From Microcella sp. (GTDB lineage: Bacteria > Actinomycetota > Actinomycetes > Actinomycetales > Microbacteriaceae): DNA of 54,899 nt. The translations under genes were made by a program, and so were the position numbers. Positions within the stretch are counted from its first letter, which is position 1, and every line of letters starts with the position of its first letter. Of this stretch, positions 23,416 to 51,052 are shown piece after piece. Location of the stretch: contig NZ_JAUSMI010000135.1 in assembly GCF_030645145.1 (NCBI RefSeq), positions 1 to 54,899 on the forward strand, written 5' to 3'. The notes under the pieces are model-generated. The model made no database searches. It saw nothing but the letters and a program-made list of their open reading frames with translations, and was not told the origin of the DNA.

Positions 23416-25986
23416 TTACTTCCCGGCCTCGGCCGCGGGCGCGGTCTCGGTTCCGTCGGTGGCGGAGTCGTTCTCGACCTCCGCCGTATCGGCGTCTGAT
23501 TCTTCCAGGTTTCGCTCGCTGTTGCGTGCGATCGCGATGATGCGGTCGTCGTCATCCGGTCGGGCGAACACGACGCCCATCGTGTCGCGACCCTTCGCCG
23601 GCACCTCCGACACCGCCGAGCGCACGACCTTGCCGCCCGCGAGGACCACGAGCACCTCGTCGTCCTCCGCCACGATGATGCCGCCGGCGAGCCCGCCGCG
23701 ATCGTCGTTGAGCTTGGCGACCTTGATGCCGAGTCCGCCGCGGCCCTGCACGCGGTACTGGTCGACAGCGGTGCGCTTGGCGTAGCCGCCCTCCGTGACG
23801 ACGAACACGTAGCCGTCGTCGTGCACGACCGAGGCCGAGAGCAGGTGGTCATCGCCGCGGAAGCTCATGCCGCGCACGCCCGAGGTCGAGCGGCCCATCG
23901 GCCGCAGCGCCGAGTCGCTCGCCGTGAAGCGCACCGACATGCCGCCGCGCGAGATGAGAAGGATGTCGCTCTCCTCCTCCGCGAGCATCGCCGAGACGAG
24001 CTCGTCGCCGTCGCGCAGGTTGATCGCGATGATGCCGCCCGAGCGGTTCGTGTCGTACTCGGTGAGCGCGGTCTTCTTCACGAGGCCGTTGCGGGTCGCG
24101 AGGACGAGGAACTTCGCCGCCGAGTAGTCGCGGATGTCGAGGATCTGCGCGATCTCCTCCCCCGGCTGCAGGGCGAGGAGATTGGCGACGTGCTGGCCCT
24201 TCGCATCGCGACCGGCCTCCTGGATCTCGTACGTCTTCAGGCGGTAGACCCGGCCGGTCGTGGTGAAGAACAGCAGCCAATGGTGGGTCGTCGTGACGAA
24301 GAAGTGCTCGACGACGTCGTCGGCGCGCAGCTGCGCGCCCTTCACTCCCTTGCCGCCGCGATGCTGCGAGCGGTAGTTGTCGCTGCGCGTGCGCTTGATG
24401 TACCCGCCGCGGGTGACGGTGACGACCATCTCCTCCTCGGGGATCAGGTCCTCCACGCTCATGTCGCCGTCGAAGCCGAACATGATCTCGGTGCGGCGGT
24501 CGTCGCCGAACTTGTCGACGATCTCGGTGAGCTCGTCGGCGACGATCGAGCGCTGGCGCACCGGGCTCGCGAGGATCCCCTGGTAGTCGGCGATGAGCCG
24601 CTCGAGCTCCTCCGCCTGCTCCTGGATCTTCTGCCGCTCGAGCGCCGCGAGGCGGCGCAGCTGCAGGTTGAGGATGGCCGTGGCCTGCAGCTCGTCGACG
24701 GCGAGGAGCTGCATGAGCCCTTCGCGAGCCTCCTCCACCGTGGGCGAGCGACGGATCAGGGCGATGACCTCGTCGAGAGCATCCAGTGCCTTCAGGTAGC
24801 CGCGCAGGATGTGGGCGTCCGCCTCCGCCTTCTTCAGGCGGAAGGCGGTGCGCCGGACGATGACCTCGATCTGGTGCGACACCCAGTAGGTGATGAACCC
24901 GTCGATCGGCAGGGTGCGGGGCACCCCGTCGACGATCGCGAGCATGTTGGCGCCGAAGTTGTCCTGCAGCTGCGTGTGCTTGTAGAGGTTGTTGAGCACC
25001 ACCTTCGCGACCGCGTCGCGCTTGAGCACGATCACGAGGCGCTGGCCGGTGCGGCCCGACGACTCGTCGCGGATGTCGGCGATGCCGCCGAGCTTGCCCT
25101 CCTTGACGAGGTCGGCGATCTTGATCGCCAGGTTGTCGGGGTTCACCTGGTACGGCAGCTCGGTGATGACGAGGCACGTGCGGTTCTGGATCTCCTCCAC
25201 CGTCACGACCGCGCGCATCGTGATCGAGCCGCGGCCCGTGCGGTACGCGTCGTGGATGCCCTTGACGCCGAGGATCTGCGCGCCCGTGGGGAAGTCGGGG
25301 CCCTTCACGCGCTGCATGATCGCGTCGAGCAGCGTCTCGCGGTCGGCCTCGGGGTTCTCGAGGTGCCACAGGGCGGCCGAGGCGACCTCGCGGAGGTTGT
25401 GGGGCGGGATGTTCGTGGCCATGCCGACCGCGATGCCGACCGATCCGTTGACGAGCAGGTTCGGGAAGCGCGAGGGCAGGATCGCGGGCTCCTGCGTGCG
25501 CCCGTCGTAGTTGTCCTGGAAGTCGACGGTGTCCTCGTCGATGTCGCGGACCATCTCCATCGCGAGCGGCGCCATCTTCGTCTCGGTGTACCGAGGGGCG
25601 GCCGCGCCGTCGTTGCCGGGCGAGCCGAAGTTACCCTGGCCCGCGGCGAGCGGGTACCGCATCGACCACGGCTGCACGAGGCGCACGAGGGCGTCGTAGA
25701 TCGCCGAGTCGCCGTGCGGGTGGAACTGGCCCATCACGTCGCCGACGACGCGCGAGCACTTCGAGAACGCCTTGTCGGGGCGGTAGCCGCCGTCTTACAT
25801 CGCGTAGAGCACGCGGCGGTGCACGGGCTTGTGGCCGTCGCGAACGTCGGGCAGCGCGCGCCCGACGATGACGCTCATCGCGTAGTCGAGGTACGAGCGC
25901 TGCATCTCGAGCTGCAGGTCGACCTGATTGACGCGGCCTCCGGGGCCGGGGCTTACGTCGTCGACGTCGGTGATGTCGTCGGCCAT
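23416..25986 (-). pseudogene. gyrA: DNA gyrase subunit A, interrupted by an in-frame TAA at codon 64
   Basis: Full frame from ATG 25986 to 23416 would give about 856 residues, normal for GyrA. Codon 64 (25797-25795) is TAA. Just before it the sequence reads [11 protein letters not shown] and just after it [19 protein letters not shown] in the same frame; related proteins have Tyr there, so TAC to TAA is a single-base change. The rest is intact: [10 protein letters not shown], catalytic Tyr in APRYTE, and the GyrA box QHRGGKG of the C-terminal pinwheel. The longest ORF after the stop could begin at GTG 25737 but would lack the first 83 residues. Gyrase is essential, so a sequencing error, a second copy elsewhere, or readthrough must be considered. 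Confidence 0.85.
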
Positions 25987-26049: not shown

Positions 26050-28125
<2,076 letters not shown>

Positions 28126-48708: not shown

Positions 48709-49161
48709 ATGTCGAAGCTCATCCTCACGCAGGAGGTCACCGGTCTCGGTGCTCCCGGCGACGTCGTCGAGGTCAAGAACGGGTACGCCCGCAACTACCT
48801 CATCCCCCAGGGCTACGCCGTGGCGTGGACCCGCGGTGGCGAGAAGCAGGTGGACCAGATCAAGGCCGCCCGCACCGCCCGCGAGCACGCCACGATCGAA
48901 GAGGCCCAGGACCTCAAGGCGCGCCTCGAGGCCAACCCCGTGAAGCTCGCCGTCAAGGCGGGCGCCGAGGGCCGGCTGTTCGGCTCGGTGAAGACCGCTG
49001 ATGTGGCCGCGGCCGTCGAGAAGGCCGGCATCGGCTCGATCGACAAGCGTCTCGTCGAGCTCGTCGCGCCGATCAAGTCGGTCGGCACCCACGAGGCGAT
49101 CCTCAAGCTCCGCGACGGCATCGTCGCGACGATCACCCTCCAGGTGGTCGCCGCGAAGTAG
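48709..49161 (+). CDS. rplI: 50S ribosomal protein L9
   Basis: A 150-residue ribosomal protein. The N-terminal domain has [14 protein letters not shown] and the signature [14 protein letters not shown]; a long connecting helix (about 40-75) leads to the C-terminal domain ([19 protein letters not shown]). ATG 48709 is the start; a GTG at 48706 is also possible. Last gene of the operon; a strong hairpin terminator follows at 49178. Confidence 0.97.
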
Positions 49162-49177
49162 TCGCGAGCGCGCAACG

Positions 49178-49213
49178 GAAGCGCCCCCGGGGTCTCGATC
49201 CCGGGGGCGCTTC
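49178..49213 (+). terminator. Terminator of the rpsF-rplI operon
   Basis: GAAGCGCCCCCGGG (49178-49191) pairs with CCCGGGGGCGCTTC (49200-49213) around an 8-nt loop. The 14-bp perfect stem is 17 nt after the rplI stop. Only TCGTCG follows. Confidence 0.8.
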
Positions 49214-49645
49214 GTCGTCGTCGGGGCCGATTCCGGGGGGTACGTGCGCCGCTCCCTAGCGGGTCGGAGCCCGTCCGCGCAAGAGCTCGAGGGGCCGTTC
49301 TGTGCACAGGTGAGCATTCAGAACGGCAACTCTGAAGTGCCGCTTGAAGCCTGTTTCCCCACACATGGTGTGGAAACGGAAAACCCAGGTCAGAGGTCGG
49401 TTCCGGCGAGAATGAGCTCCGAATGCCACAGGCCTGTCCACAGGCTGTGCACACCGTCACCGGCGTTTCTCGACCGCTCTCCACATCGTTATCCACAGGG
49501 CTGGTTGAGGGTACCGCGACGCCGTCCCTATCGTGATGGCCTATCCCGCCGCACACGCAGCCACTCGCGTGTCATCGCTCCGCTGTCAGTGGTCGGCGGT
49601 ACACCTGAAGCACTCAGCGATCCGATCGCAGATTTTGGAGGCCCT
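49214..49645. promoter_or_regulatory. DnaA-box cluster in the rplI-dnaB gap
   Basis: The 484-bp gap after rplI holds, past the terminator, a perfect TTATCCACA (49489-49497), CTGTCCACA (49434-49442, one change from TTGTCCACA), GTTTCCACA on minus (49369-49377, two changes), and CTGTGCACA (49445-49453). The 10-bp palindrome CTGTGCACAG at 49300-49309 also occurs in oriC. A hairpin CCACAC-ATG-GTGTGG lies at 49359-49373. No gene is credible here; DnaA may regulate dnaB or be titrated. Confidence 0.55.
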
Positions 49646-51052
49646 GTGTCCCTCGCGCACATCGGCAGCGCCCTCGACGCTCGAGGCGGCTCCGACAACC
49701 GCGGGTCCGATCACCGGGGCTCCGACGGCCGCCACTCCGAGCGGACGCCGCCGCACGACCTGCTCGCCGAGCAGAGCGCGATCGGCGGAATGTTGCTCAG
49801 CAAGGACGCCACGGCCGACGTCATCGAGGTCGTGCGGGGCATCGACTTCTACGTCCCGAAGCACGAGGTCATCTTCGAGGCGATCCTGTCGCTGTACTCG
49901 CGCGGCGAGCCCACCGACGTCATCGCCGTCACCGACGAGCTCACGAAGGCCGGCGACCTGTCGCGCGCCGGCGGCGCCGACTACCTCCACACCCTCACGG
50001 GCATCGTGCCGACCGCCGCGAACGCCGGCTTCTACGCCTCGCTCGTCGCCGAGAAGGCGGTGCTCCGTCGCCTCGTCGATGCGGGCACGCGCATCGTCCA
50101 GATGGGCTACGCGAGCGAGGGCGAGGTCACCGACCTCGTCAACAACGCCCAGGCCGAGATCTACGCCGTCGCCGGCGGAACGCAGTCGGAGGACTACGTC
50201 CCGCTCACCGAGGCCGTCAACGAGGCGATCGACGAGATCGAGGCGGCCCGCGGCCGCGACGGCTCGATGACGGGCGTCCCGACGGGCTTCGCCGACCTCG
50301 ACGCGCTCACCAACGGCCTCCACGCGGGCCAGCTGATCCTCATCGCCGCGCGCCCCGCGCTCGGAAAGTCGACCGTCGCCCTCGACTTCGCCCGCGCCGC
50401 CGCGATCAAGCACAACCACCCCACGGTCTTCTTCTCGCTCGAGATGGGGCGAAGCGAGATCGCGATGCGCCTGCTCTCGGCCGAGGCCTCCGTACCCCTC
50501 CACGCGATGCGCAAGGGCACGCTCGAGTCGCGCGACTGGACGACGATCGCCTCGACGCGCGGCCGCATCAACGACGCCCCGCTCTACATCGACGACAGCC
50601 CGAACATGACGCTCGTCGAGATCCGCGCGAAGTGCCGCCGACTGAAGCAGACGGTCGGGCTCAAGATGGTCATCATCGACTACCTGCAGCTCATGACGAG
50701 CGGGAAGCGCGTCGAGAGCCGGCAGCAGGAGGTCAGCGAGTTCTCTCGCGCGCTCAAGCTCATGGCGAAGGAGCTGCAGGTGCCCGTCGTCGCCCTCTCG
50801 CAGCTCAACCGAGGCCCCGAGCAGCGCGCCGACAAGAAGCCGGCGCTGAGCGACCTCCGCGAGTCCGGCTCGCTCGAGCAGGACGCCGACATGGTGATCC
50901 TCCTCCACCGCGAGAGCGCCTACGAGAAAGAGAACCCGCGCGCGGGCGAGGCCGACTTCATCGTCGCCAAGCACCGCAACGGCCCGACCGACACGATCAC
51001 GGTCGGCTTCCACGGGCACTTCTCCCGCTTCGCCGACATGCCGCGGGTCTAG
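49646..51052 (+). CDS. dnaB: Replicative DNA helicase DnaB
   Basis: Hexameric helicase that unwinds the fork. 468 residues from GTG 49646 (GGAGG 5 nt upstream). After a short variable start (residues 1-35), the N-terminal domain has HDLLAEQSAIGGMLLS, the RecA-like domain has Walker A ARPALGKST, IIDYLQLM and the LSQLNRGPEQRADKKP loop. No intein is present, unlike some Actinobacteria. It depends on a loader; DciA at 28206-28706 is the candidate. A DnaA-box cluster lies upstream. Confidence 0.96.
   Translation: MSLAHIGSALDARGGSDNRGSDHRGSDGRHSERTPPHDLLAEQSAIGGMLLSKDATADVIEVVRGIDFYVPKHEVIFEAILSLYSRGEPTDVIAVTDELTKAGDLSRAGGADYLHTLTGIVPTAANAGFYASLVAEKAVLRRLVDAGTRIVQMGYASEGEVTDLVNNAQAEIYAVAGGTQSEDYVPLTEAVNEAIDEIEAARGRDGSMTGVPTGFADLDALTNGLHAGQLILIAARPALGKSTVALDFARAAAIKHNHPTVFFSLEMGRSEIAMRLLSAEASVPLHAMRKGTLESRDWTTIASTRGRINDAPLYIDDSPNMTLVEIRAKCRRLKQTVGLKMVIIDYLQLMTSGKRVESRQQEVSEFSRALKLMAKELQVPVVALSQLNRGPEQRADKKPALSDLRESGSLEQDADMVILLHRESAYEKENPRAGEADFIVAKHRNGPTDTITVGFHGHFSRFADMPRV

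Follow-up and report, generated by a model that had tools for sequence, protein, structure and literature searches.

Isolated base errors in draft assemblies can create false nonsense codons. The gyrA gene of the Microcella sp. genome studied here has several features in common with such errors: a single substitution, intact flanks, an essential gene and an unlikely substitution nearby. Nonsense suppression and stop-codon reassignment also place an in-frame stop within a conserved frame, and the likeness of this locus to those systems goes no further. Gyrase is essential, and Microcella is an environmental genus. The closest named GyrA is that of Microcella alkalica (L003; Microbacteriaceae), with 95% identity over the part after the stop, and another genome of the genus (G004) encodes the same GyrA as M. 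alkalica over the aligned part. Protein identity to GyrA of G012 (locus L084), also of the same genus, reaches 99% across the 792-residue part that follows the stop. The full-length frame is common to our gene and to those of M. alkalica and G012. In contrast to our gene, none of the 91 related gyrA loci has a stop at codon 64 or His at codon 52. We consider the TAA at codon 64 to be an error of base calling or consensus, confined to one spot of a fragmented draft assembly, with a probability of about 0.85, and most likely not new biology.

The gyrA reading frame and its neighbourhood

The window, i.e. the whole stretch of 54,899 nucleotides that was analysed, is contig C60 of a draft genome of 2,412,510 bases in 176 contigs, with 98.99% completeness and 1.2% contamination. 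A replication-origin cluster lies on the minus strand. Named by their Pfam matches, its products are DnaA, DnaN, an SMC/RecF-type protein, GyrB, GyrA and a DUF3566 protein, after which come tRNA-Ile and tRNA-Ala. Three features are needed here:

26050-28089, minus strand: gyrB, intact, immediately upstream of gyrA
23416-25986, minus strand: gyrA, one frame of 857 codons counting the terminator, with TAA at codon 64
25795-25797, minus strand: in-frame TAA at codon 64, where 91 of 91 relatives have Tyr or Phe

The gyrA gene starts with the ATG at 25986 and ends with a TAA terminator at 23418-23416 (minus strand). The original prediction described this frame as open save for one TAA at codon 64, with an intact HPHGDS motif, and both statements were borne out. 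The TAA occupies 25797-25795 (minus strand), so that the frame is interrupted in the given sequence; 792 open codons follow before the terminator, and HPHGDS is present in the product. The part after the stop matches the Pfam families DNA_topoisoIV and DNA_gyraseA_C. Both domains expected of a gyrase A subunit, the breakage-reunion domain (PF00521) and the C-terminal GyrA repeats (PF03989), are thus there. Moreover, the top solved-structure match of this 792-residue part is DNA gyrase subunit A, aligned in a single stretch over residues 1-769.

Codons 52 and 64 and selection on gyrA

We compared the gene with 91 related gyrA loci, 80 taken from one search and 11 from another, two of which are protein-identical to another, leaving 89 distinct sequences. 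Codon 64 encodes Tyr at 57 of the 91 loci, Phe at 34 and a stop at none. Hence, the earlier statement that relatives have Tyr here holds for the larger part of them, whereas Phe occupies the position in the rest. The TAA had also been presented as the lone anomaly of the gene, which was not confirmed, since a second codon is odd as well:

25831-25833, minus strand: codon 52, His here, whereas all 91 relatives have Leu or Met

At this codon, Leu is found in 86 and Met in five of the 91 relatives. Codon 52 lies upstream of codon 64, 12 codons away, and the private bases of the two codons are 37 bases apart. In an alignment of 90 distinct GyrA proteins, counting only columns that are gap-free in the relatives, codons 52 and 64 were the sole positions with a state absent from all 89 distinct relatives. 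They alone form a local cluster of evolutionarily unlikely substitutions of the kind that marks a sequence error, and that both anomalies fall at positions conservative in all 91 relatives counts in favour of an error.

The number of private positions per GyrA sequence ranged from 0 to 21 when at most two residue types were permitted in the remaining sequences. Two random positions would lie as close as codons 52 and 64 with a probability of about 0.028, while four private codons within 36 have a probability of 0.49 and are unremarkable. Six of the other 89 GyrA sequences, all of them more divergent, likewise have neighbouring private replacements, so close private pairs are not unheard of, which counts against an error. 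What is unusual is such a pair inside a GyrA so nearly identical to that of G012 after the stop.

The remainder of the gene changes in an ordinary way. From codon 23 onward, 20 gyrA codons differ from four relatives that agree with each other, and 18 of these differences are synonymous, the exceptions being codons 52 and 64. The same count in the four relatives gave product-changing shares of 0/8, 1/46, 14/45 and 12/66. Against the two near relatives G012 and G001, taken where they agree, 37 bases are private from codon 23 onward, of which 35, including that of the stop, are at third positions; codon 52 has the sole second-position change and the sole T>A, and codon 622 the sole first-position change. 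One further private change of the replacement type precedes codon 23, at 25955 in the variable N-terminal tail. These substitutions show that strong purifying selection acts on gyrA in this lineage, which also favours an error. Because the private changes are mostly synonymous or at third positions, the gene does not look like one in decay but like a conserved one in which two odd codons lie near each other. A pseudogene, which would show relaxed selection, was therefore rejected, in agreement with the earlier assertion that this is not a decayed gene.

Second copies, tRNAs and decoding of UAA

Besides an error, the original prediction had offered a true nonsense mutation covered by a second gyrA, or an unusual readthrough event. 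Searches by Pfam family, protein and DNA found no second gyrA in this 98.99% complete draft. The only other DNA_topoisoIV gene in the genome, on contig C137, is 39% identical to GyrA, and we infer that it is parC. With the 5' part of gyrA as query, a DNA search of the genome returned gyrA itself, the C137 paralogue (74% over 201 bases) and otherwise short matches. Neither the suggested cover nor a second gyrA was thus found in the whole-genome check, beyond this paralogue and the short matches. A GyrA-type search gave two matches in 20 of 26 genomes of the genus, ours included, and one of these second matches was short. One draft of the genus, G015 (75% complete), has on contigs C37, C92 and C6 five partial matches that resemble gyrA and vary in identity; this draft may be a mixed bin.

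It is unlikely that the nonsense mutation is true and very recent, carried by a mixed or dying variant in the sequenced material or by a lineage that topoisomerase IV alone keeps alive. The presence of a paralogous type II topoisomerase subunit speaks for such a mutation, and the base call could hold, since the assembly is otherwise clean (see below). Against it, gyrase is essential, and the private changes from 23416 to 25794, i.e. after the stop, comprise one non-synonymous and 32 synonymous changes, a mark of purifying selection, although a very recent stop would look alike. Furthermore, if selection on the gene were relaxed, the sole two odd residues that it has would not be expected to lie within 12 codons of each other, and the partner gene gyrB is intact. 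That gene was detected, by the match used, at 79 of the 91 related loci, and its product has one residue unseen in these 79 relatives, at a site that is variable among them.

If the stop is real, the cell could alternatively bypass it, with readthrough or misreading of UAA yielding enough full-length GyrA. The complete conservation of the downstream frame would suit this explanation, and the genome has near-cognate tRNAs for Tyr, Gln and Lys, as genomes ordinarily do. However, all 43 tRNAs found in the 98.99% complete draft were typed and none of them reads UAA; there is one tRNA for Tyr, with anticodon GTA. The suppressor tRNA that the original prediction proposed to look for was thus not among them, although a UAA-reading tRNA, or for that matter a gyrA copy, may possibly be hidden in the missing part of the draft.

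The translation termination machinery appears ordinary as well. The genes prfA and prfB (RF1 and RF2) both score over their cut-offs and have no internal stops, and TAA terminates three of the 33 gene models in the window, that of gyrA included and its internal stop left out. Hence, neither loss or restriction of a release factor nor avoidance of UAA as a terminator was found, and no other mid-gene stop, which could have pointed to recurrent in-frame UAA, was seen in 323,082 of the 2,412,510 bases. Two folded stretches of RNA at the stop were no better than shuffles (z of +1.31 and +1.10), and the sequence after it is ordinary coding sequence as in four aligned relatives, with no new element seen. 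UAA is the stop least read through according to a passage of PMC5289835, which agrees with what had been said of TAA in the original prediction. The suggested readthrough event thus found no support, and we regard bypass of a real stop as extremely improbable. Unlike systems of nonsense suppression or stop-codon reassignment, this genome combines TAA as a normal terminator and unbroken release-factor genes with no matching tRNA among those found.

Re-initiation after a real stop, at GTG codon 84 or ATG codon 85, would give an N-terminally shortened GyrA. This alternative, too, is scarcely credible. It draws on the GTG at codon 84, which is private to our genome among five aligned sequences, while ATG 85 occurs in the four aligned relatives as well. 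The product would be shorter by 83-84 residues at its N-terminus, where the conserved KPVHRR segment and some of the Pfam domain lie, and the part after the stop already begins at profile position 27 of 432. By eye, no purine run resembling a ribosome-binding site is evident close before ATG 85. In the mechanically produced list of open reading frames, codon 84 (25735-25737) is the start of a frame of 773 amino acids; the change to GTG is synonymous, and its private occurrence is probably due to chance.

A real and fixed stop, with which the organism lives either because UAA is bypassed efficiently in the absence of a dedicated tRNA or because it does without full-length GyrA, is very unlikely. 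Were the stop real, the view that gyrase is indispensable would be challenged, or else an actinobacterium would be shown to bypass UAA strongly.

Assembly quality and a probable local consensus error

Among the explanations that had been put forward, an error of sequencing or assembly has the most support and is our preferred reading. A local error is favoured, as it explains the stop and the adjacent His together and requires nothing unusual of the cell. Both would stem from one poorly supported stretch, perhaps covered by very few reads, or even a single one, where a hairpin and GGC occur:

25845-25867, strand not assigned: inverted repeat of 8 bp without mismatches, enclosing a 7-nt loop, shortly ahead of codons 48-52 in the reading direction of gyrA

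From the end of the inverted repeat it is two bases to the private third-position change of codon 48, and GGC immediately precedes codon 52. The hairpin and GGC together may form an error-prone context, by analogy with contexts described elsewhere: a passage of PMC4787001 relates that inverted repeats and GGC have been tied by others to Illumina errors, while PMC4787001 itself prefers a different cause of such errors.

The His at codon 52 probably belongs to the same local error as the stop, and gyrA is probably ordinary and intact in the cell itself. Two further points count against an error. The site lies mid-contig in sequence of ordinary GC content (0.697 vs 0.708), and the assembly is otherwise clean, with one mid-gene stop in 323 kb.

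This last result comes from a coding-potential scan of the window and 14 further stretches, together 323,082 of the 2,412,510 bases. Three candidate mid-gene stops were found with strict settings and eight with looser settings. The eight comprised the codon-64 stop, the terminator of gyrA, five stops followed by an ATG 2-8 codons on, and one stop between PAC2 and MFS genes, so that gyrA holds the sole mid-gene stop in the 323 kb scanned. With only eight candidates in the looser scan, the codon-64 TAA is no chance pattern of noncoding DNA. The same scans gave no strict and one looser candidate in G012 and G001 (89,533 bases), and no strict and two looser candidates in the related loci (719,963 bases); in both sets, sensitivity may be lower, because the scan model was trained on our own genome. 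In a family-wide survey of 299 genomes, internal stops were absent from all rows listed, which do not include our gyrA.

Over 27,460 shared bases, our genome has 651 private differences, G012 has 902 and G001 has 1339. Since our genome has fewer private differences than either, no general excess of errors is seen. Gene models were compared as well. An orthologue of at least 75% identity was found, within the compared stretches, for 69 of 95 models of G012, of which six were flagged, and gyrA was the only one of these with a stop read as internal. The other flagged models were three with a stop near the 5' end, one in two overlapping frames and one with its match at a stretch end; the first four are read, from their alignments, as models that are probably over-extended at the 5' end. 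In our own genome, an orthologue was found for 80 of 107 models. Of the six flagged here, four run into a stretch end, one (L151, 4436-6742) has no match for its first 156 residues, and one is the frame at 48992-51052 of the window described below. A generally poor assembly was rejected, as there is no surplus of private differences or of broken genes. Even a good draft may have a single bad spot per several hundred kilobases. These results suggest caution wherever an essential gene in a draft that looks good carries a single nonsense codon; the best test is to look for a second unlikely substitution nearby.

Searching the literature for gyrA stops together with sequencing errors, or for errors in metagenome-assembled genomes, gave no match, and a search on Microcella with gyrA returned nothing related. 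Elsewhere in the window, the frame at 48992-51052 is open in our genome, while the matching DNA of G012 has four in-frame stops and many small indels; this is perhaps a gene model on the wrong strand or a fast-evolving gene.
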